Shown here: positions 453-40,253 of the stretch, piece by piece
Position numbering within the stretch: position 1 is the stretch's first letter
How the letters are laid out: each line of letters opens with the position of its first letter
The notes under the pieces: generated by a model
What the model was told of the DNA's origin: nothing
Database searches by the model: none
What the model saw: the letters and a program-made list of their open reading frames with translations, nothing else
Translations under genes and position numbers: made by a program
From: Candidatus Iainarchaeum sp.
GTDB taxonomy: Archaea; Iainarchaeota; Iainarchaeia; Iainarchaeales; UBA10191
Assembly: GCA_030649735.1 (NCBI GenBank)
Contig: JAUSFL010000035.1
Span: 1 to 64,000, forward strand
Reading direction: 5' to 3'
DNA: 64,000 nucleotides

Positions 453-953
453 ATGAAAAACATGGGCGACTTTGACTATTTGCCTTACTGCATTCCCTGC
501 AAGGCCTGGTGCTGCCATTCTGAAAATCCTTTTGCCTCAAAAAGCGAGCTCAAAGGGCTTTCAATATCAAAAATAACCCATAAGAAAAACACTGACTGCG
601 TTTTTTTGAAGGACTCAAAGTGCAAAAAGCATGCCTTAAGGCCTTTTGAATGCAGGATTTTCCCGTTTGACGTCAAGGAAATTGATGGGGAATTGTGGTG
701 GGTTTTGTGGAAAAACTGCCCGGCGTCCTCAAAGCTTCCGGCAAAAGAATTCGTCAAGTTTTTTGAGAAAGAATACCCAAAAAAATGGGGTTTGAAATAT
801 GTAAAAGACTATGTAAATTACCACAAGAAGGCCGAGCCCGCAAAATATTCTGGATTAAAGTTCAAAAAACTGAAAAGGCTTGACTGGAATATTTTGAAAA
901 AAAAAGGAAAAGAAAATTGCGTGAGATTTTCGGTTTTGTTTCCGATACCATAA
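453..953 (+). CDS. YkgJ-type cysteine-cluster (putative metal/Fe-S chelating) protein
   Basis: Motif CIPCKAWCCHSE...DCVFLKDSKCKKHALRPFECRIFPFD; ATG at 453. Confidence 0.75.
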   Translation: MKNMGDFDYLPYCIPCKAWCCHSENPFASKSELKGLSISKITHKKNTDCVFLKDSKCKKHALRPFECRIFPFDVKEIDGELWWVLWKNCPASSKLPAKEFVKFFEKEYPKKWGLKYVKDYVNYHKKAEPAKYSGLKFKKLKRLDWNILKKKGKENCVRFSVLFPIP

Positions 954-1065: not shown

Positions 1066-1746
1066 GTGTTTGGTTTTATTTTATCAGCCGTGGCTCAAAA
1101 AGAAGAGGAAAAGAACATGCTTGCCTTGCTTGAAAAAAGCAAGGATTTCAAGAGCCTTTCAAAATTTGAGAAAGTGCAGGCAATCAGCATTCAAATTGCT
1201 TCAGAAGTCGTAAAGCAAGGCGAAGGCTCTTTAATAGTCATTGGCAAAACCAAAAGCTATCATTCTATCTTTCCAAACTTTTTCAAAAAAGGCAAGACAA
1301 GCATTTTTGACGCGGGCATGGAAAAAGTGCTGATTAAGCTTGCCCAAGTGGATGGCGCAATAGTTCTGGACAATTCGGGCTTTATTCAGGCTTACGGCGC
1401 GCGCATTACGAAATCCTCGACTTTCAAGGGCGCTGGAACAAGGCATTCTGCAGCCAAGGGAATTTCGCAGGAAAAAGGCGTTATTGCAATTCTTTCTTCA
1501 GAAGAAGACAAAGTAGTGAGGATTTTCAAGGGCGGCACAGTAGTTGCTGAAATAAACCCTAACACTAAAGGCGTTGAAAGCAGTGTCTCAAAGCTTGTAA
1601 AATTCGTTAATTCGCCGGACGGCGCTGTTGCCGCAGGAGCCGCCATTGCAATTCCTTTCTTGAGCATTCCAGGAGTCATTGTTTTTGCAGGCTCTTATTA
1701 CGTTGCAAAAAACATACTGAAGCTCACCCAAAAAGGGCAAAAGTAA
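1066..1746 (+). CDS. diadenylate cyclase (DAC/DisA_N domain) with C-terminal hydrophobic segment
   Basis: DGAIVLDNSGFIQAYGARI and GTRHSAAKGIS match the DAC DGA and GTRH(R) motifs; C-terminal AVAAGAAIAIPFLSIPGVIVFAGSYYVAK. Confidence 0.75.
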   Translation: MFGFILSAVAQKEEEKNMLALLEKSKDFKSLSKFEKVQAISIQIASEVVKQGEGSLIVIGKTKSYHSIFPNFFKKGKTSIFDAGMEKVLIKLAQVDGAIVLDNSGFIQAYGARITKSSTFKGAGTRHSAAKGISQEKGVIAILSSEEDKVVRIFKGGTVVAEINPNTKGVESSVSKLVKFVNSPDGAVAAGAAIAIPFLSIPGVIVFAGSYYVAKNILKLTQKGQK

Positions 1747-2265: not shown

Positions 2266-3024
2266 TTAAAAAAGTATTCTGCCGGCTTTTTGCATGATTG
2301 GGCTGATTATTTCGTCGCCTTTCATTGTCCTGATGCGGACTTCTTCAATTCCTTGGATTTGCCTTGCAGTCTTCAAGAGCTTTTCATAGCTTGGTGAAGG
2401 GCAGCCTTCAACTTCTTTTCCCAGAGTTCCTTCGCTTCCAATGAATTGCTGCAGCACAAAGCGTTTTGCGCCTTTAAGCTGGCGTGAAAGCTCGAGCACG
2501 TCGCGGTGAGAGTGAAGAGCCGGAACAAAAGTCATCCTGAACTCGTAGTCATTGCAGTAGAATTTTGTGGCCTGAATGCTTCTCCACACTTCTTCAATGT
2601 TAACGCGCTTTCCAGTGATTTTAAAGTAGGAGTAATCGTTGATTTGGCTTTTCAAGTCTATTGAAACAAAGTCCACAAGGCCTTTTCCGAGGATTTCTTC
2701 AAGCAAGACGCTGTCAGAGCCGTTAGTGTCAAGCTTTACTTCAAAGCCTTCGGCTTTGAGCACTTGCAAGAATTCGACAAGCTTTTTTCCCTGCAGTAAT
2801 GGCTCTCCGCCAGAAATCACTACGGAATTCACTTCAGGAAAGCCGTTGAACAATTCCTGCAGTATTTTTTCTTGCGGGATTGTTTCCAAGTTTTCAGAAT
2901 CGGCAATTATTGAATGCGCGTAGCAGTACTTGCATTCGAAATTGCAGCCTGGAGCGTACACAACTGAACTTTTTCTTCCAGGCCATGCCGTAAGGCTTTG
3001 CGGAAAGAATGCCGCTATCTGCAT
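2266..3024 (-). CDS. radical SAM protein, anaerobic RNR-activating protein family (NrdG-like, paralog 2)
   Basis: APGCNFECKYCY (CxxxCxxC), ISGGEPLLQ, KLDTNGS; probable start MQIAAFFPQSL. Confidence 0.75.
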   Translation of the reverse strand: MQIAAFFPQSLTAWPGRKSSVVYAPGCNFECKYCYAHSIIADSENLETIPQEKILQELFNGFPEVNSVVISGGEPLLQGKKLVEFLQVLKAEGFEVKLDTNGSDSVLLEEILGKGLVDFVSIDLKSQINDYSYFKITGKRVNIEEVWRSIQATKFYCNDYEFRMTFVPALHSHRDVLELSRQLKGAKRFVLQQFIGSEGTLGKEVEGCPSPSYEKLLKTARQIQGIEEVRIRTMKGDEIISPIMQKAGRILF

Positions 3025-3101
3025 AGTAAAACCAACTCTCAAGCAATTAGAATGCAGGTTCTTTTTAAAAATCATTTCTTTGGGTGGTTTATTTTTAAAT
3101 G

Positions 3102-3803
3102 CTAGTCCAAATTCCTGAATTCGACTTTTTTGACTTTTTTTTCAAGGACTTTCTTGAATTTTTCAAAATCCGCCAGGGAAAATTTTCTCGCATTTCTCAA
3201 ACTGCTGTCAATTAAGGTGTCGACTGGAACAAACTGCTGCAAATAATAAATTTTTGCGCCTTCCAAAAGTTCTGCGATTTTTTCAAAGTCTTCTTCCTTG
3301 TGGAATTCAGGCAATAGCGTGGTGCGGAATTCATATTCAATTTTTGAGTTTTTCAAGAGCTCGATGCTTTTTCTGATTTTGTCCAGTGGCGCAAGAACTC
3401 CGCAAATCCTTTCATAATTTTCCAAAGGCCCCTTAATGTCCATTGCAACATAATCAACCAGTCTTTTTTCAATCAATTCCTCAAGCATTTCGGGGTTTGT
3501 TCCATTAGTGTCCAGTTTTACCAAATAACCTATGGCTTTCACTTTTTCCAAAAATTCGGGCAGGTCTTTCTGCAGTGTTGGCTCGCCGCCCGAGACAACA
3601 ACGCCTTCAAGCACTTTTTTCCTTAAAGCCAGAAAATCAAGGTATTCTTGCACTGGAACTTCGCCTAATTCTTCATCGTCATTCACAATGCCTGAATTAT
3701 AGCAGAACCCGCACTTGAAATTGCAGCCTGGAGTGAAGGCAGTGCTTGCAAGCCTGTCCGGAAAGTCAAGTAGTGTTGTTTTTTGAATGCCTTTGATTCG
3801 CAT
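3102..3803 (-). CDS. nrdG: anaerobic ribonucleoside-triphosphate reductase activating protein
   Basis: TPGCNFKCGFCYN, VSGGEPTLQ, KLDTNGT; close to nrdD and sharing an upstream 14-nt motif with it. Confidence 0.8.
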   Translation of the reverse strand: MRIKGIQKTTLLDFPDRLASTAFTPGCNFKCGFCYNSGIVNDDEELGEVPVQEYLDFLALRKKVLEGVVVSGGEPTLQKDLPEFLEKVKAIGYLVKLDTNGTNPEMLEELIEKRLVDYVAMDIKGPLENYERICGVLAPLDKIRKSIELLKNSKIEYEFRTTLLPEFHKEEDFEKIAELLEGAKIYYLQQFVPVDTLIDSSLRNARKFSLADFEKFKKVLEKKVKKVEFRNLD

Positions 3804-4157: not shown

Positions 4158-4859
4158 TTACTTGAATCTTCTGACAAACCTGTAAGGGCATTCGCAAGGC
4201 GCCTTGTGGCACACGTGGCAGTTGTTGAAGAAAAGCTTTGAAAGCTCTCCTGCAACGTCAACATTCAATGAATTGAAAACGCTCATTACTGTCGAGTAAT
4301 AGTCTGCTGCTTCCTTTACCGCGATTTCCAAATCGCAGTACCTTCTTTCTCCCCTGAAAGTCCAGACTGCTTCTGAAAGCTCTCCGAGCTCTTCAGCCAA
4401 ATGCAGGCCCGCGATTTCCAAAGTCCTTGCGCTTGCAGGATATATTTTGTTGAACATTTCCTGGAATTCGCGCATTGTTTTTGGTCTTTTGGATTCGTCA
4501 ATGATGACTTTCTTTCGCCCTTGCACTGCGTTTTTCTTGCACTCGCAAGGGGCTTTTCCGCAGTAAGAGCAAAGGTAAGGGAATCTTTGCCAGACTGCGT
4601 CTTCAACGTCAATGTGAAGCCTTGACATTGTGGAGCTGAACCAGCTTAATGAAATCAAGGCGTTTACTTTGGTTTTTTCCGCGTTTCCTTGGCGTATTCC
4701 TTTGATGCAGCGCATTGCGTGCCTTTGAATGTTGTTGAGCATTTCTGAAAGCTCGTAATCGCGGTCATTGGGCAGAAAATAGACTTCTTTCACGAATTCT
4801 TGAAAGTCATGAATGTTTCCGTTCTCTTGAAAACTTGCCATTAAGACAGCCTCTTGCAT
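4158..4859 (-). CDS. MazG-like nucleotide pyrophosphohydrolase with zinc-knuckle motifs (copy A)
   Basis: HLAEELGELSEAV...KEAADYYSTV (EExxE...ExxD-like); CSYCGKAPCECK and CHVCHKAPCEC. Confidence 0.65.
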   Translation of the reverse strand: MQEAVLMASFQENGNIHDFQEFVKEVYFLPNDRDYELSEMLNNIQRHAMRCIKGIRQGNAEKTKVNALISLSWFSSTMSRLHIDVEDAVWQRFPYLCSYCGKAPCECKKNAVQGRKKVIIDESKRPKTMREFQEMFNKIYPASARTLEIAGLHLAEELGELSEAVWTFRGERRYCDLEIAVKEAADYYSTVMSVFNSLNVDVAGELSKLFFNNCHVCHKAPCECPYRFVRRFK

Positions 4860-4901: not shown

Positions 4902-5585
4902 TCATTTGAATCTTAAAACAAGCCTGTAATCGCATTCGCAAGGCGATTTATGGCATGCAAAACAGTTATTGTCGAAGTTTTTTGCCAATTCTTTAGCCAG
5001 GTCAGTATTTAATGAGTTGAATATTCCAAAGACTGTTGACAGGTAATCTGCGGTTTCTTTCATGATTGTTTCAAAATCGCTGTTGCGCCTTTCTCCCCTG
5101 AAAGCAAGGATTGCGTCAGAGAGCTCGCCAAATTCTTCAGCCAAGTGAATGCCTGCAATTTCAAGGCTTCTTGAAGCCGGGGGGTAAATTCTTTTGAACA
5201 TTTCCTGGAATTCATGCATTGTTTTAGGCCTTTTGCTTTCAATCACGTCAACTTTTCTCCTTCCGGGAATTGATTCTGCCTTGCAAGTGCATGAAATGTT
5301 TCCGCAGTAAGAGCACAAGTAAGGAAACCTTTGCCAAAGCGCGTCTTCAATGTCAATGTGAAGCCTTGTCGCCATTGAAGTGTACCAGCTTAAAGAGCGC
5401 AAAAAATTAAGCTTGGCTTTCTCAGGATTTCCCTGGCGTATTCCCTTAATCCCTAAAGTGACAAACCTGTGGACATTCGCGAGCATTTCAGCCAATTCAA
5501 ACCCGCGGTCGTTCGGGAGGTCGTAGACTTCGTTGATGAATTGCTGGAATTCTTTAATGCTTCCGTTTTCTGGAAAATTAGCCAT
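4902..5585 (-). CDS. MazG-like nucleotide pyrophosphohydrolase with zinc-knuckle motifs (copy B)
   Basis: Collinear paralog of 4158-4859: HLAEEFGELSDAI...KETADYLSTV; CSYCGNISCTCK; CFACHKSPCEC. Confidence 0.65.
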   Translation of the reverse strand: MANFPENGSIKEFQQFINEVYDLPNDRGFELAEMLANVHRFVTLGIKGIRQGNPEKAKLNFLRSLSWYTSMATRLHIDIEDALWQRFPYLCSYCGNISCTCKAESIPGRRKVDVIESKRPKTMHEFQEMFKRIYPPASRSLEIAGIHLAEEFGELSDAILAFRGERRNSDFETIMKETADYLSTVFGIFNSLNTDLAKELAKNFDNNCFACHKSPCECDYRLVLRFK

Positions 5586-5817: not shown

Positions 5818-7848
5818 TTATATTACCTCCAAGGCTCTCTCTTTAATCATATTGGTTTTGACGACTACAGGGCATGTTTCATGATTTCCCGCAACATAAC
5901 CGTGCGTTTTGCAAATGCTGAATGTAGGCGTTATTGTAAAGTACGGCAAGTGATAGTTTTCCGCAATTTTTCTGACGAGTTTTTTGCAGGCTGTCGGACT
6001 TGAAATTTTTTCCCCAATAAAGCCGTGCAGCACTGTTCCGCCAGTGTACTTGCATTGCAGTTCGTCCTGGTGGTCTAATGCTTCAAAAATGTCGTCAGTG
6101 TAATCAACAGGCAAGTGCGAGGAATTCGTGTAGTATGGCGCGTTTTTTCCGGCCTGCAAAATGCCTGAAAGGTTTTTTTGGTCATGCCTTGCAAACCTGT
6201 ATGACGTTCCTTCTCCAGGAGTTGCTTCCAAATTGTACATGTGGCCTGTTTCTGCCTGGAATTCCTGCAGTCTTTCGCGCATGAAGTCCAAAACCCTGAG
6301 TGCAAAGGCCTTTCCTTCAGGAGTCTGGATTCCGCTGTCAGGCCCTAAAAAATTCAGGCAAGCCTCATGCATTCCATTCAATCCAATTGTTGCAAAGTGA
6401 TTGTTCAAAGTACCCAAGTATCTTCGCGTGTAAGGCAATAATCCTTGGTCCATGTTTTTTTGAACTTCTTTCCTTTTGATTTCAAGGCTTTCTTTTGCCA
6501 GAATCATCAGCCTTTCAAGCCTTGCAAAGAATTCTTTCTCGCTTTTTCCCTTGCTCAAGAAAGCCAAGCGAGGCATGTTTATTGTAACGACTCCAACGCT
6601 TCCAGTTGACTCTCCGGCCCCAAACAATCCGCCAGTCTTGCTTTTGAGCTTTCTCAGTTCATTCAAGTCAAGCTGCAGCCTGCAGCACATTGAGCGCACG
6701 TCATGCGGTTTTAATGAACTGTTGATGAAGTTTTGAAAGTATGGAATTCCGTACTTTGCGGTCATTTCAAAAAGCAATTCCGCATTTTCTGAATCCCAAT
6801 TAAAGTCTTTGGTTAAGTTGTAGGTTGGGATTGGGAATGAAAAAGTCCTTCCGTCAGCGTCTCCCTTAATCATCATGTCCAGGAAAGCCCTATTTATCAA
6901 GTCCATTTCATCCTGGAAGTCGCTGTAAGTCTGGTCTTGCAATTTTCCTTTAATGATTACTGGCATGTCTTTCATGTCTTCTGGAACAGTCCAGTCCAAT
7001 GTAATGTTTGTGAAAGGCGGCTGATTGCCCCAGCGGGAAGTCTGGTTGACGCTGTAAACAAACTCTTGCAGGCCTTGCTTTACTTCCTCGTAAGACAATC
7101 CTTCCTTCCAAATGAACGGGGCAAGATAAGTGTCAAAGCTTGAGATTGCCTGCGCTCCAGCCCATTCATTCTGCAAAGTTCCAAAAAAATTCACTAGCTG
7201 TCCTACTACTGCATGCATGTGTCCTGCCGGGCCTGCAGCAATTCTTCCAGAAACTCCCCTGAATCCTTCAGTGAGCAATTGCCTGAAAGACCATCCTGCA
7301 CAATAGGCCGCGAAAACCCCGTGGCTTAAGTCATGAATGTGCAAGTCCGCGCTCCTGTGCGCGTCAGAAATTTCTTTTGGGTAAATGTTATTCAAAGTGT
7401 ATTCTGCGACAATGTTTCCTGAAATGTGCGCCTGCAGGCCGGTCATTGAGTAAGTTTCGTTCGCGTTTTCTTTCACGCGCCAGTCAGTTCCAATCAAGTA
7501 GCCGTCAATTATTCCCTCGGCTTTTCTCAAAAAGCTTTTCGTGTCCCTTAACTGCCTTCTTTGCTCCCTGTAAAGAATGAAAGTCTTTGCAGTGTCTGCG
7601 TATCCTTCCTTGATTAGGATTCTTTCAACAATGTCCTGGATTTCTTCAACAGTCGGGTTGGTGTTTCCAAATCTTTCCTTCAACTGCTGGACTATTTTGT
7701 CAGTCAATTCTTCAGCAATCCAACGGTCTTTTCCACCGACTGCCTGTGCTGCGGCAAAAATTGCATTGGTGACTTTTTCACGGTCAAACCTTGTTGTACG
7801 GCCGTCTCTTTTAATCACGCAGTCAAAATACTTTTTTGCCTCTTGCAT
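5818..7848 (-). CDS. nrdD: anaerobic ribonucleoside-triphosphate reductase, catalytic chain lacking the glycyl-radical motif
   Basis: N-terminal ATP-cone (VIKRDGRTTRFDREKVTNAI), MCCRLQLDLNEL, GGLFGAGESTGSVGVVTINMPRLAF, TPTFSICKTHGYVAGNHETCP; stops before any RVxGY motif. Confidence 0.9.
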   Translation of the reverse strand: MQEAKKYFDCVIKRDGRTTRFDREKVTNAIFAAAQAVGGKDRWIAEELTDKIVQQLKERFGNTNPTVEEIQDIVERILIKEGYADTAKTFILYREQRRQLRDTKSFLRKAEGIIDGYLIGTDWRVKENANETYSMTGLQAHISGNIVAEYTLNNIYPKEISDAHRSADLHIHDLSHGVFAAYCAGWSFRQLLTEGFRGVSGRIAAGPAGHMHAVVGQLVNFFGTLQNEWAGAQAISSFDTYLAPFIWKEGLSYEEVKQGLQEFVYSVNQTSRWGNQPPFTNITLDWTVPEDMKDMPVIIKGKLQDQTYSDFQDEMDLINRAFLDMMIKGDADGRTFSFPIPTYNLTKDFNWDSENAELLFEMTAKYGIPYFQNFINSSLKPHDVRSMCCRLQLDLNELRKLKSKTGGLFGAGESTGSVGVVTINMPRLAFLSKGKSEKEFFARLERLMILAKESLEIKRKEVQKNMDQGLLPYTRRYLGTLNNHFATIGLNGMHEACLNFLGPDSGIQTPEGKAFALRVLDFMRERLQEFQAETGHMYNLEATPGEGTSYRFARHDQKNLSGILQAGKNAPYYTNSSHLPVDYTDDIFEALDHQDELQCKYTGGTVLHGFIGEKISSPTACKKLVRKIAENYHLPYFTITPTFSICKTHGYVAGNHETCPVVVKTNMIKERALEVI

Positions 7849-7937
7849 CTCTCTCAACACCTTTTTTCAATGACTAAAACTCCCATTCAAAAAGAGAACA
7901 ATTTTTTTCTTTCGAAAATTGTAAAGTATTACTAAGC

Positions 7938-36564: not shown

Positions 36565-37266
36565 TTAAGAGCCCGCAATCCTGCTTAAAGCCCCCAGTTT
36601 AGTGCCTTCAAACAGTTTTTCCTTCATTTTGCTGAAAACAAACTTTTCAAGCAAGGCATAATCCTGCTTTGGAAACTCGCCTTTAATGAGCTTTTCAATG
36701 TCTCCCCAAGTCCGGTCAATGTAAGTCAAATTCTTGATTTCTTCATCCTTGCACTCTCCAAGGCATGAATGAGAACTCCTTATTAACGCAAAGTCTATTT
36801 TTGAAAACCTGAAAGTGTAATAGCCTTCAGTCCACAAGTCATGGCCTACAAAAACCATTTCTTCAGGCGTGTAGCCAAATTTTTCTTGAATTGCTTGAAT
36901 TGTCACTTGCTTGAAGTATTCGTCCTTGAATTCCTTGTTTTCAGTTATTTTTTGCTCATACAATTTCCTGTCAATTTCTTCCCTTCCGGCCAGGTATTCC
37001 CTGTTCACGAAAGAAATCCTGTCTTCTGGAAAAAACTCCCGCAATTTGTATTGTTCAATTCTTTTCAATGCCTCGTCTGCTGAATATCCAGTGGCTGCAA
37101 AAAACCTGAAGCGCGGGAATATTTCCTCGACTTTCTTCAAATTTTTCAGAATTCCCGAAACATTCTTCATTTTCACGTCCTTGTCAATGTTTCCCGGGAT
37201 CAGCACGTCTTCAAACCCAAAAATAAGGCATTTTTTTGCCAAATCAGAATCTTTCTTAATTTTCAT
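36565..37266 (-). CDS. HAD-like hydrolase-related protein
   Basis: CLIFGFEDVLIPG, FAATGYSADEAL, PEEMVFVGHDLWTEGYYTFRF. Confidence 0.5.
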   Translation of the reverse strand: MKIKKDSDLAKKCLIFGFEDVLIPGNIDKDVKMKNVSGILKNLKKVEEIFPRFRFFAATGYSADEALKRIEQYKLREFFPEDRISFVNREYLAGREEIDRKLYEQKITENKEFKDEYFKQVTIQAIQEKFGYTPEEMVFVGHDLWTEGYYTFRFSKIDFALIRSSHSCLGECKDEEIKNLTYIDRTWGDIEKLIKGEFPKQDYALLEKFVFSKMKEKLFEGTKLGALSRIAGS

Positions 37267-37293: not shown

Positions 37294-37394
37294 TCAATAA
37301 AAACCTTTGTTCGCCAACTGTCCAGCCAGTTGGCATCTGGGAATGTGCGCTATCTTGCGATAGCGCGGTAATGCTTAATTCAATAAAAACCTTT
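37294..37394 (+). repeat. 15-bp direct repeats TCAATAAAAACCTTT flanking structured element copy 1
   Basis: 37294-37308 and 37380-37394 are identical. Confidence 0.6.
37314..37375 (+). repeat. structured repeat element copy 1 (stem, conserved loop, then 8-bp hairpin)
   Basis: CCAACTG-TCCAGC-CAGTTGG-CAT-CTGGG-AATGT-GCGCTATC-TTGC-GATAGCGC-GGTAATGCTT. Confidence 0.65.
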
Positions 37395-37435
37395 CCGCAC
37401 TCTACTTGTAAATAAGTTCTAGAATGAGATCTTTT

Positions 37436-37509
37436 GGGGCTGTAGTCTAGCTTGGTTAGGACCTATGCTTTGGGAGCATAAAACCACGGTTCAAATCCGT
37501 GCAGCCCCA
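37436..37509 (+). tRNA. tRNA-Pro (anticodon TGG)
   Basis: GGGGCTG/CAGCCCC acceptor, GTC/GAC D stem, TATGC-TTTGGGA-GCATA anticodon arm, CACGG-TTCAAAT-CCGTG T arm. Confidence 0.96.
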
Positions 37510-37570
37510 AACCGCCCAGCCGGTTTATGTCTGGGCATGTGCGCTATCTAAAGACAGCGCGGTAATGCTT
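37509..37570 (+). repeat. structured repeat element copy 2, immediately 3' of tRNA-Pro
   Basis: AAACCG-CCCAGC-CGGTTT-ATGT-CTGGG-CATGT-GCGCTATCTAAAGACAGCGC-GGTAATGCTT. Confidence 0.65.
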
Positions 37571-37590: not shown

Positions 37591-37624
37591 ATGTGCGCTA
37601 TTTTTGATAGTGCGGTAATACTAT
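37591..37624 (+). repeat. structured repeat element copy 3 (second hairpin half only)
   Basis: ATGT-GCGCTATTTTTGATAGTGC-GGTAATACT. Confidence 0.6.
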
Positions 37625-37640
37625 TCTAATTTTTTGACTG

Positions 37641-39212
37641 TTAGTTTTCGGCAAGCTTGCCGAATTTCCAAAAGTCAAATTCTGAAGGAAAGCAGGAATT
37701 TTTTCCGGAAAATCCTTCACTGCGCTGTTTTTTCTCCAAAACAAGGCTTTTCATGATTTCCTCTTTTTCACTGGCGCTTTTTCCATTAAGGTCTTTTCCA
37801 AATTCCTTGAAAATAATGCAATTGCTTGCCTGGCCTGTGGGATTGACCCTGATTTTCCTGCATTTTTTCGGGTCGCATTCAAAGTCTATCGAGTATTGCG
37901 GCAAAATTCCAAAAACCACTTTGTTTTCCATTATTTCAAAATACTCGCTTTTTGGGTTGTCGCCCTTGAAAAAAACAGGCCTGATTTGCCCGAATTCTTT
38001 CCTGACTGCCTCGACTGCCTTTCTGACTGGCACGTATTCTTTCTTGACGAATTGCGCGTCTTTTTCAAAACCGCCTGGAATTAGCTCCAAAAACCGTACG
38101 GCAATCTTGCAGTTTCTATTGCGTTCAGACAATTCCTTTATGAAATTAATTATTTTTGGAATTTCCTGCAAGTTTTGCTTTGAGAGCACAAAATGAATTT
38201 TGACTGTCTCAAAGAATTCTGCGGCCTTTTCTATTGACTGCAAAACTTGCGGCAGGAAATCAAAGCCGGTGATTTGCGCAAATTTTTCCCTGTCTAAAGT
38301 GTCCAGGCTTATGTTGGCGCGGCTGATTCCGCAGTTTTGCAATGCTTCAGCATTTCTAAAAAGCGTTGTCCCGTTTGTTGAAATGCACTGTTCTGAAAAC
38401 CCGAGCTCTTTTGCTTTTTTTGTGAGCTGTAAAAAACCTTGATTTATTGTGGGCTCGCCGCCAGTCCATCTGACTCGCTTGATTCCGGAATTTTTTGCAG
38501 CCTGCAGTATTTCAATGATTTCTTCATTGCTTATTTTTGGCATTCTTTCCTGGTTGTTTTCCCTCTTGCAGTAGTTGCAGTTCAAATTGCATTCCCTTAA
38601 GGAAATTTCAAGCATGAAATCATTGATTTTTCCGATTTCTTCAACGACTTTCTTGAATTCTTCATTCTTTGTCCCATCAAGCTCAAAGCCCGCTTTTTGC
38701 TTTAATGGCTCAATGTGCAAGTCGTGCATTGGACGCACGTGCTCTTCAAGCCGTTTGCGCACTTTCTCTTGCGAAATATTCCTTTCAATGCAGTCTCTTT
38801 TAATGCGCCTTGCAAATCTTTCAGCCTCGGGCGCGTTGACAAAAAACTTCAAGTCCATTTCCTTGTTCAATTCATTGTCGTGCAGTGCGAGAATTCCCTC
38901 AAAAATTATTATCTCGGCGGAATGGATCTTTTCAAAGCCAGTCCTTCCGTTCTCGTACTCGTAAATTGGGGCCCTAAAATCCCTGCTGTTTTTCAGGCTG
39001 GCAATGCAGTTTTTGATTAATTCCCAGTCAAAGGATTCCGGGCAGTCAAAATTCTTTTCGCCATTGAATTCTGGAATTTCAGAATGGCTTTTGTAAAACC
39101 TGTCCTGGCTTAAAATCAGCGCGTTCTTTCCAAGATTCTCGGCGGCCTTTCTCGCAATTGTTGTTTTTCCAGAAGCAGAACCCCCGGCAATCCCAACAAC
39201 CAGCACCATCAA
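37641..39212 (-). CDS. fusion protein: N-terminal uridine kinase/PRK-like domain + C-terminal MoaA-like radical SAM domain
   Basis: GIAGGSASGKTTIARKAAENL, LSQDRFYKSHSEIPEFNGEKNFDCPESFDWELI; then SLRECNLNCNYCKREN, RWTGGEPTINQGF, ISLDTLDREKFAQITG, C-terminal CDPKKCRKIRVNPTGQASNCII. Confidence 0.88.
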   Translation of the reverse strand: MMVLVVGIAGGSASGKTTIARKAAENLGKNALILSQDRFYKSHSEIPEFNGEKNFDCPESFDWELIKNCIASLKNSRDFRAPIYEYENGRTGFEKIHSAEIIIFEGILALHDNELNKEMDLKFFVNAPEAERFARRIKRDCIERNISQEKVRKRLEEHVRPMHDLHIEPLKQKAGFELDGTKNEEFKKVVEEIGKINDFMLEISLRECNLNCNYCKRENNQERMPKISNEEIIEILQAAKNSGIKRVRWTGGEPTINQGFLQLTKKAKELGFSEQCISTNGTTLFRNAEALQNCGISRANISLDTLDREKFAQITGFDFLPQVLQSIEKAAEFFETVKIHFVLSKQNLQEIPKIINFIKELSERNRNCKIAVRFLELIPGGFEKDAQFVKKEYVPVRKAVEAVRKEFGQIRPVFFKGDNPKSEYFEIMENKVVFGILPQYSIDFECDPKKCRKIRVNPTGQASNCIIFKEFGKDLNGKSASEKEEIMKSLVLEKKQRSEGFSGKNSCFPSEFDFWKFGKLAEN

Positions 39213-39331
39213 ACCACCTTGGCAGTTTTCCTATTTTTTCCAGTTTTTCAGCAGAAAATCCCAAATTTTGTCGTCTGCCGCGTGAACCAAATTATTGAGC
39301 AGTTTTTTCAAGCCGCTCACCTTTGGAATTG

Positions 39332-39410: not shown

Positions 39411-40253
39411 GTGCTTTCAAAGGAATTGCAGGAAAAGATACTCAAGCTTGTGAAAAAAGAGCCTTGCCTGGTGCAGGACATTTCTCGGCACATTGGAAAA
39501 AGCTGGGTTGCGACTGAAGGCTATGTTGAAAGAATCTCGAAAGACACTGGCTTGATTAGGACAAAGGCATTCCGCAAGGGAACCAAAGGCGCTGTCAAGG
39601 TTGTTTACTGGAATTATTCTGAAAGCGTCCAGGATGACGAGGTCAAGGAAAGGCTTTTTCAGAGAATAAAGCTGTTTTCAAGCAAGAAAGAATTTGATCC
39701 CTTGGAAATCTTCCAGTTTGCCAAGGACAAACGCTCTAATGCGACTGTGGAGTTCAAGAGCAAAAGGCTTTCAAGCAAGCACCATAAAAACTTCCTTTCA
39801 TTCCTGAAAAAGGCGGATTCTGAATTATTGTGCTTTTCAGGAAACATTTCCTGGATTAGCATCAAGGAAGGAAACGAAAGCGCCTTAAGAATAATTGAGG
39901 AATTCCTGAAAAAGCGCGGAGTCTTGAAAATACTCTGCAGGATTGACATTGCCTCAATGAAAAACATCCGCTTGCTCGAGCCCTTGATGAAAAAATTTCC
40001 AGGCCAGGTTGAAGTAAGGCATTCAAGCCAGCCAGTGCGCGGCTTCATAATGGATTCCAAAATTGCGCGCTTCAAGGACGAGAAAAAAATTTCAGACTTC
40101 AAGGAAGGCGAATTGTCAGAAGACCTGTACTTGTTTTATGAATTGTTTGACATTGACTGGGTCGAGTGGTGCAAGAATGTTTTCTGGTACTTGTTCCGGA
40201 ATTCAATAGGGCTTCAGGAACGGGTCAAAGTGCTTGACAGGCTGGTTTTCTAG
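39411..40253 (+). CDS. HTH transcriptional regulator with C-terminal PLD/TrmB-like effector domain
   Basis: Winged-helix-like N-terminus (LSKELQEKILKLVKKEPCLVQDISRHIGKSWVATEGYVERI) and an alpha/beta C-terminal domain. Confidence 0.6.
   Translation: MLSKELQEKILKLVKKEPCLVQDISRHIGKSWVATEGYVERISKDTGLIRTKAFRKGTKGAVKVVYWNYSESVQDDEVKERLFQRIKLFSSKKEFDPLEIFQFAKDKRSNATVEFKSKRLSSKHHKNFLSFLKKADSELLCFSGNISWISIKEGNESALRIIEEFLKKRGVLKILCRIDIASMKNIRLLEPLMKKFPGQVEVRHSSQPVRGFIMDSKIARFKDEKKISDFKEGELSEDLYLFYELFDIDWVEWCKNVFWYLFRNSIGLQERVKVLDRLVF

Follow-up and report, generated by a model that had tools for sequence, protein, structure and literature searches.

A PRK/uridine-kinase-type domain fused to a diverged MoaA-like radical SAM domain in one gene of a Candidatus Iainarchaeum genome

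PolH and NikJ, the octosyl acid phosphate synthases, are MoaA-like radical SAM enzymes that act on a UMP-derived substrate; we know of no kinase fusion of either enzyme. Viperin, to our knowledge, lacks a C-terminal second cluster. In vertebrates the CMPK2 gene adjoins the viperin gene and CMPK2 raises CTP for viperin (PMC10058120). As proposed for the protein described here, a nucleotide kinase is genetically tied to a MoaA-related radical SAM enzyme working on a nucleotide, although the vertebrate genes are separate and the kinase belongs to another family. MoaA carries its C-terminal cluster on three cysteines, and this cluster binds GTP through the base of the nucleotide (PMC5352715); its Arg17, by touching the 3'-OH of the ribose, reduces the barrier to cyclisation and stabilises the GTP transition state (PMC8124187). 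Among uridine kinases, UCK2 activates the 5'-hydroxyl with D62, grips the ribose 2'- and 3'-hydroxyls with D84 and R166, and recognises the base by H117 together with Y112, H117 being required for uridine (PMC9163393).

The window, i.e. the whole stretch of 64,000 nucleotides analysed, contains a gene on the minus strand in which a kinase domain of the PRK/uridine kinase type is followed by a radical SAM domain. This architecture is, as far as we know, undescribed, and no paper combining radical SAM, uridine kinase and fusion was found among the papers searched. Two known enzyme families are combined here in a new way, which does not amount to a new kind of system, and the finding rests on one gene in one draft genome. 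The features of the gene are:

37644..39209, minus strand: kinase-radical SAM fusion gene, a single ORF with two Pfam domains, ATG start, stop codon at 37641-37643
39214..39220, minus strand: Shine-Dalgarno-like AAGGTGG (AGGTGG in AAGGTGGTTTG) preceding the ATG at 39209, read from the sequence
38688..39200, minus strand: PRK/uridine-kinase domain, residues 4-174 (Pfam PF00485, 2.7e-28; PDB 3w8r, 6.6e-31; genome search)
39159..39185, minus strand: Walker A motif GGSASGKTT, residues 9-17, from the sequence and an alignment with solved uridine kinases
38139..38597, minus strand: radical SAM core domain, residues 205-357 (Pfam PF04055, 1.6e-26; MoaA 1tv7, 1e-18)
38568..38591, minus strand: CxxxCxxC radical SAM cluster motif C207/C211/C214, read from the sequence
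37818..37877, minus strand: putative auxiliary [4Fe-4S] cysteines C445, C450 and C464, which align with the ligands of the C-terminal cluster in MoaA

The ORF is uninterrupted over 522 aa, its ATG at 39209 being a likelier start than the possible TTG at 39212, and AAGGTGGTTTG ahead of this ATG is a plausible ribosome-binding site. The plus strand in the frame of the ORF has many stops. A preliminary description had placed a fusion at 37641-39212, and the fusion is genuine; this span is exact when the stop codon and the upstream TTG are included, the motifs it listed (GGSASGKTT, QDRFYKS, CNLNCNYC, WTGGEPT and CDPKKC...NC) all occur in the translation, and the gene consists of one ORF with two strong Pfam domains, not of two separate ORFs. 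GC content and codon usage are host-like in both halves, so that an assembly chimera of foreign DNA appears unlikely for this architecture, known from one genome. Codon adaptation is 0.083 for the whole gene, below most neighbours (0.078-0.200), and 0.074 and 0.088 for the two halves. The low value of the whole gene, the single genome and the differing locus in a sister genome (see below) would suit an accidental or decaying fusion that is biologically unimportant, or an error of local assembly in the draft. We consider this unlikely in view of the 522 open codons, the entirely intact catalytic motifs, the Shine-Dalgarno-like site and the host-like codon use and base composition of both halves.

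The best NCBIfam models for the protein are MoaA and uridine kinase, and the equivalog cut-offs of both are missed: 166.9 against 284.05 bits (TIGR02666) and 155.1 against 325.25 bits (TIGR02668) for MoaA, 161.7 against 180 bits (PRK05480, slightly under the cut-off) and 147.7 against 220.3 bits (TIGR00235) for uridine kinase. Mob_synth_C, the C-terminal domain of MoaA, matches residues 370-489 below the Pfam threshold (31.6 vs 37.4 bits), and the viperin profile reaches 48.7 vs 180 bits (NCBIfam). Models for PolH or NikJ are not among the matches listed. The best solved structures are 3w8r for the kinase half and 1tv7 for the radical SAM half, which we take to be Thermus uridine kinase and S. 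aureus MoaA, respectively. As far as profile scores can tell, chance is excluded for both halves. An AlphaFold2 model built from few input sequences is too poor to use (mean pLDDT 46.9, pTM 0.40), and the substrate pocket discussed below is deduced from alignments.

With Udk/UCK2 (PF00485; solved structures 1udw, 3asy and 3w8r) the kinase half shares the P-loop with Lys15, the catalytic base D36 (UCK2 D62), the ribose-binding Asp and Arg and the lid arginines. When the fusion is aligned to UCK2 and to the kinase from Thermus, its Y39, F54, D55 and Y83 correspond to UCK2 Y65, F83, D84 and Y112, and R135, R138 and R143 to UCK2 R166, R169 and R174; Y65, F83, R169 and R174 presumably have catalytic or ribose-binding roles in UCK2. 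Unlike Udk/UCK2, the fusion kinase is joined to a radical SAM domain, has no His equivalent to UCK2 His117 in the alignment, where a shortened loop (YEYENGRTGF) is present, and carries Arg at the position of UCK2 Gln184. The nearest stand-alone archaeal kinases (38-40% identity; genomes G209, G349 and G131) also vary in the His117-loop region, so the changed base loop is not unique to the fusion; no radical SAM gene was seen adjoining any of these three. The kinase half reads as a predicted active riboside kinase whose base preference is not callable as uridine. The intact kinase of the preliminary description is thus upheld at the level of catalytic and ribose-binding residues, none of which is lost, whereas its uridine-like substrate is not supported, the His that specifies uridine in UCK2 being missing and the base loop shorter.

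The radical SAM half resembles MoaA (TIGR02666/TIGR02668; 1tv7/1tv8/2fb3) in its core, in GGEP and TNG and in the Mob_synth_C-like region, and it has three C-terminal cysteines as putative ligands of a second cluster; all six cluster cysteines are kept. The C-terminal triad is spaced C-x4-C-x13-C instead of the C-x2-C-x13-C of MoaA, the x13 being retained. Of the GTP-pocket arginines of S. aureus MoaA, Arg17 is matched by Met or Glu in the alignments, R266 by Lys, and R268 by Arg (R454 of the fusion, an assignment from an alignment at about 25-35% identity); the Arg following GGEP in MoaA is Asn. In a leave-one-out test of about 70 positions with 30 archaeal reference MoaAs, which themselves keep 90-100%, the fusion keeps 39/69 archaeal MoaA invariants, 30 (43%) being changed. 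In the tree the radical SAM half is nested within MoaA (support 99/96), where its terminal branch is very long and no sister is resolved. Given the invariants, the changed pocket and the tree position, it is a diverged MoaA paralogue and not MoaA by membership.

The host genome (G000; 1.28 Mb, 51 contigs, 92.7% complete) and ten relatives possess neither MoaC (PF01967) nor MoeA_N detectable in our searches, while control genomes are positive (11/14 for MoaC). Thermococcus-like archaea, which contain the closest MoaA match, do have MoaC. With MoaC and MoeA undetected in a 92.7%-complete genome, an ordinary MoaA of the molybdenum cofactor (Moco) pathway is unlikely, and no remainder of such a pathway was found. 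The preliminary description, which had named moaC, moaE and moeA as genes to look for, had counted an ordinary MoaA with the rest of the pathway nearby as a refutation, and the undetected MoaC and MoeA and the 30 changed invariants agree with its non-Moco reading. One could still suppose an ordinary GTP 3',8-cyclase in a cell that makes or exchanges Moco precursors, with the kinase as incidental passenger; the best NCBIfam match (166.9 bits), the best solved structure and the position inside the MoaA branch speak for it. We regard it as very improbable, since both MoaA cut-offs are missed, Arg17 is not conserved, the R266 equivalent is Lys, far more invariants are changed than in any reference, and MoaC and MoeA are not found.

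The fusion gene is flanked by an enolase and a HAD-like protein on one side, with a tRNA-Pro in between, and by a probable HTH regulator and an arginine decarboxylase on the other:

36565..37266, minus strand: HAD-like protein, assigned by eye and unmatched in Pfam; G001 has a homologue close to enolase
37435..37510, plus strand: tRNA-Pro (TGG), found by ARAGORN; convergent neighbour of the fusion gene
39411..40253, plus strand: divergent neighbour, probable HTH regulator read from the sequence, no Pfam match; homologue at the same place in G001

No operon partners or neighbours hinting at a substrate were seen at this locus, and no defence genes were recognised beside the fusion. In the other genome of the genus compared (G001, 81% complete), the HTH regulator, the HAD-like protein and the enolase (72% identical) have homologues that are grouped together with no fusion gene among them, which shows that the locus is variable between the two genomes. 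The G001 interval is broken by two runs of N and also has another small ORF; a clean empty site is not claimed. A 61-nt repeat, 80% identical between copies, occurs on both sides of the tRNA-Pro (37316-37376 and 37510-37570), with a third, partial copy at 37591-37620 directly before the fusion gene's end. It carries a GCGCTATC...GATAGCGC hairpin, has no further copies within the window, and possibly relates to tRNA processing or is an integration scar. The tRNA-Pro of G001 (L100, about 575-765, minus strand) has a normal start and unrelated sequence from near the anticodon onwards; ARAGORN finds no tRNA there, and an intron or a broken gene is possible.

Whole-genome searches of overlapping sets of 147, 93, 395 (395 archaeal species) and 28 archaeal genomes yielded no second kinase-radical SAM fusion. 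A single-sequence scan and pattern scans of GTDB contigs returned no fusion and just one bacterial kinase; the patterns, for which extra alignment rows were varied by hand to steer the choice, are insensitive to distant fusions. Among plasmids and phages no record covers 80% of the fusion protein, a viral scan with the kinase alone gave no match, and an archaeal kinase alignment is too diverse to use. A 673-aa 'open frame' in G138, tried as a candidate fusion, is in fact a pair of genes separated by a stop. In these searches the fusion is confined to one genome so far, which gives no support to a conserved new pathway. Within the phylum, a minority of genomes encode PRK-family domains, and several of these domains belong to other multi-domain proteins (L088, L089, L090, L091, L093, L095 and L096, partner domains identified by eye): a large membrane protein in G029 and G030, TTM1/CYTH-like C-terminal regions in G089, G090 and G092, and HEAT-like repeats in G047.

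Two genomes, from two other families of the host's order (G014 and G060), possess a fusion in the reverse order, in which a MoaA-like radical SAM domain comes first and a UPF0200/AdkA-like P-loop kinase second:

L058, 2340-3839, plus strand (G014)
L078, 7243-8856, minus strand (G060)

These proteins of about 500 residues are 54% identical to each other over their full length, and their kinase part matches 3lw7 (1.8e-6). Like the fusion of the window, they join a MoaA-derived radical SAM domain, likewise a divergent MoaA paralogue, and a P-loop nucleotide kinase in one protein of the same archaeal order. They differ in the reversed order, the kinase family and an additional cysteine in the region of the C-terminal cluster, and they have in common a divergent HTH-containing neighbour that is different from that of the window. 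The G014 fusion overlaps at its end with a CYTH-domain gene. A common origin of their radical SAM halves with that of the window is neither supported nor rejected (p-AU 0.32), and a sister status is not claimed. As order and kinase family differ, the two kinds of fusion arose separately. This separate reverse-order fusion favours a functional link between kinase and MoaA-like domains; it is the strongest support available, and it provides, in relatives of the host, an independent test of the link.

The reading we prefer, with a probability of about 0.5, is a bifunctional enzyme that would phosphorylate a ribosyl compound and then perform radical chemistry on the same molecule. Domains, motifs, cluster cysteines, altered pockets and undetected MoaC and MoeA are features of the sequence, from which we infer the two activities, the ribosyl substrate, the shared metabolite, the order of steps and the chemistry of the product. 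The N-terminal PRK-family kinase would transfer the gamma-phosphate of ATP to a ribosyl compound at its 5'-hydroxyl; a ribonucleoside with a base other than plain uracil or cytosine is the likeliest acceptor. The C-terminal MoaA-derived domain would cleave SAM at the CxxxCxxC cluster to give the 5'-deoxyadenosyl radical, and the second, C-terminal cysteine-bound cluster would hold the phosphorylated molecule, or one closely derived from it, and activate it for a rearrangement, oxidation or cyclisation. The fusion could pass one metabolite from site to site and keep it local, comparable to CMPK2 feeding viperin. The preliminary description had suggested phosphorylation of a uridine-like nucleoside followed by a radical rearrangement; a ribosyl nucleotide is plausibly the substrate, the suggested order of steps is hypothetical, and the uridine is not retained because the His is missing. 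Against the bifunctional enzyme stand the architecture in one genome, a locus where no operon partner indicates a substrate and, in G001, flanking genes lying together without the fusion (with the two N runs in the interval); a domain fusion alone, moreover, is no proof of a common molecule.

The two domains might instead act on different molecules of one pathway, the radical SAM domain on an RNA base, a protein or a small molecule and the kinase recycling or activating a related nucleoside or sugar. The features that set substrate specificity are lost in both halves, which leaves the substrates open, and the varied partners of PRK-family kinases in the phylum (membrane protein, CYTH-like, HEAT-like repeats) indicate that a fusion need not join enzymes acting in sequence. 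We hold this to be rather doubtful, as the parent MoaA binds its nucleotide substrate via the three-Cys second cluster (PMC5352715) and the separate kinase/MoaA-like fusion favours coupling. A special case of the bifunctional enzyme would be viperin-like or PolH/NikJ-like, the kinase boosting a nucleotide that is converted to a chain-terminating or signalling nucleotide. The pairing of a kinase with a nucleotide-acting radical SAM domain matches the logic of CMPK2 and viperin (PMC10058120), and a CYTH-domain protein follows the reverse fusion of G014; with the viperin profile at just 48.7 vs 180 bits and defence genes unrecognised alongside, this case is quite unlikely. Tentatively, and with low confidence, one may think of a new nucleotide-modifying pathway in this lineage of archaea with small genomes, in which kinase and MoaA-derived domains were joined at least two times and a rearranged ribonucleotide is made, perhaps as cofactor, RNA precursor, signal or antiviral chain terminator. 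Should the domains act sequentially, the possible substrates of this so far uncharacterised MoaA paralogue would be narrowed to what a nucleoside-type kinase produces, and the nucleotide radical chemistry of MoaA, viperin and PolH/NikJ would extend to reduced-genome archaea apparently without the Moco pathway.

Elsewhere in the window, two tandem radical SAM genes (2266-3075 and 3102-3803, minus strand) have the look of NrdG-type activases and lie near an apparent anaerobic ribonucleotide reductase (5818-7860, minus strand). A Cys-containing protein of ~230 aa with no Pfam match is present as a tandem duplicate (4158-4859 and 4902-5585, minus strand). The gene at 1066-1746 (plus strand) encodes a DisA-type diadenylate cyclase domain (DAC, 3.7e-15), so c-di-AMP signalling in the host archaeon is likely. 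Contig C44 of the host genome (L027, 4824-11912) contains a DUF362 protein, a PRK07667-like kinase and two radical SAM/SPASM proteins, the first of which scores NirJ2/AhbD-like, besides an apparent aminotransferase, an inositol-monophosphatase-family protein and an apparent CDP-alcohol phosphatidyltransferase; this cluster looks like an undescribed pathway. Two distant archaea have a PRK-family kinase beside a DUF362-like gene, in L027 (4824-6409, G000), the one case where Pfam confirms DUF362, and in L057 (3652-5386, G131), suggesting a link between kinase and DUF362.
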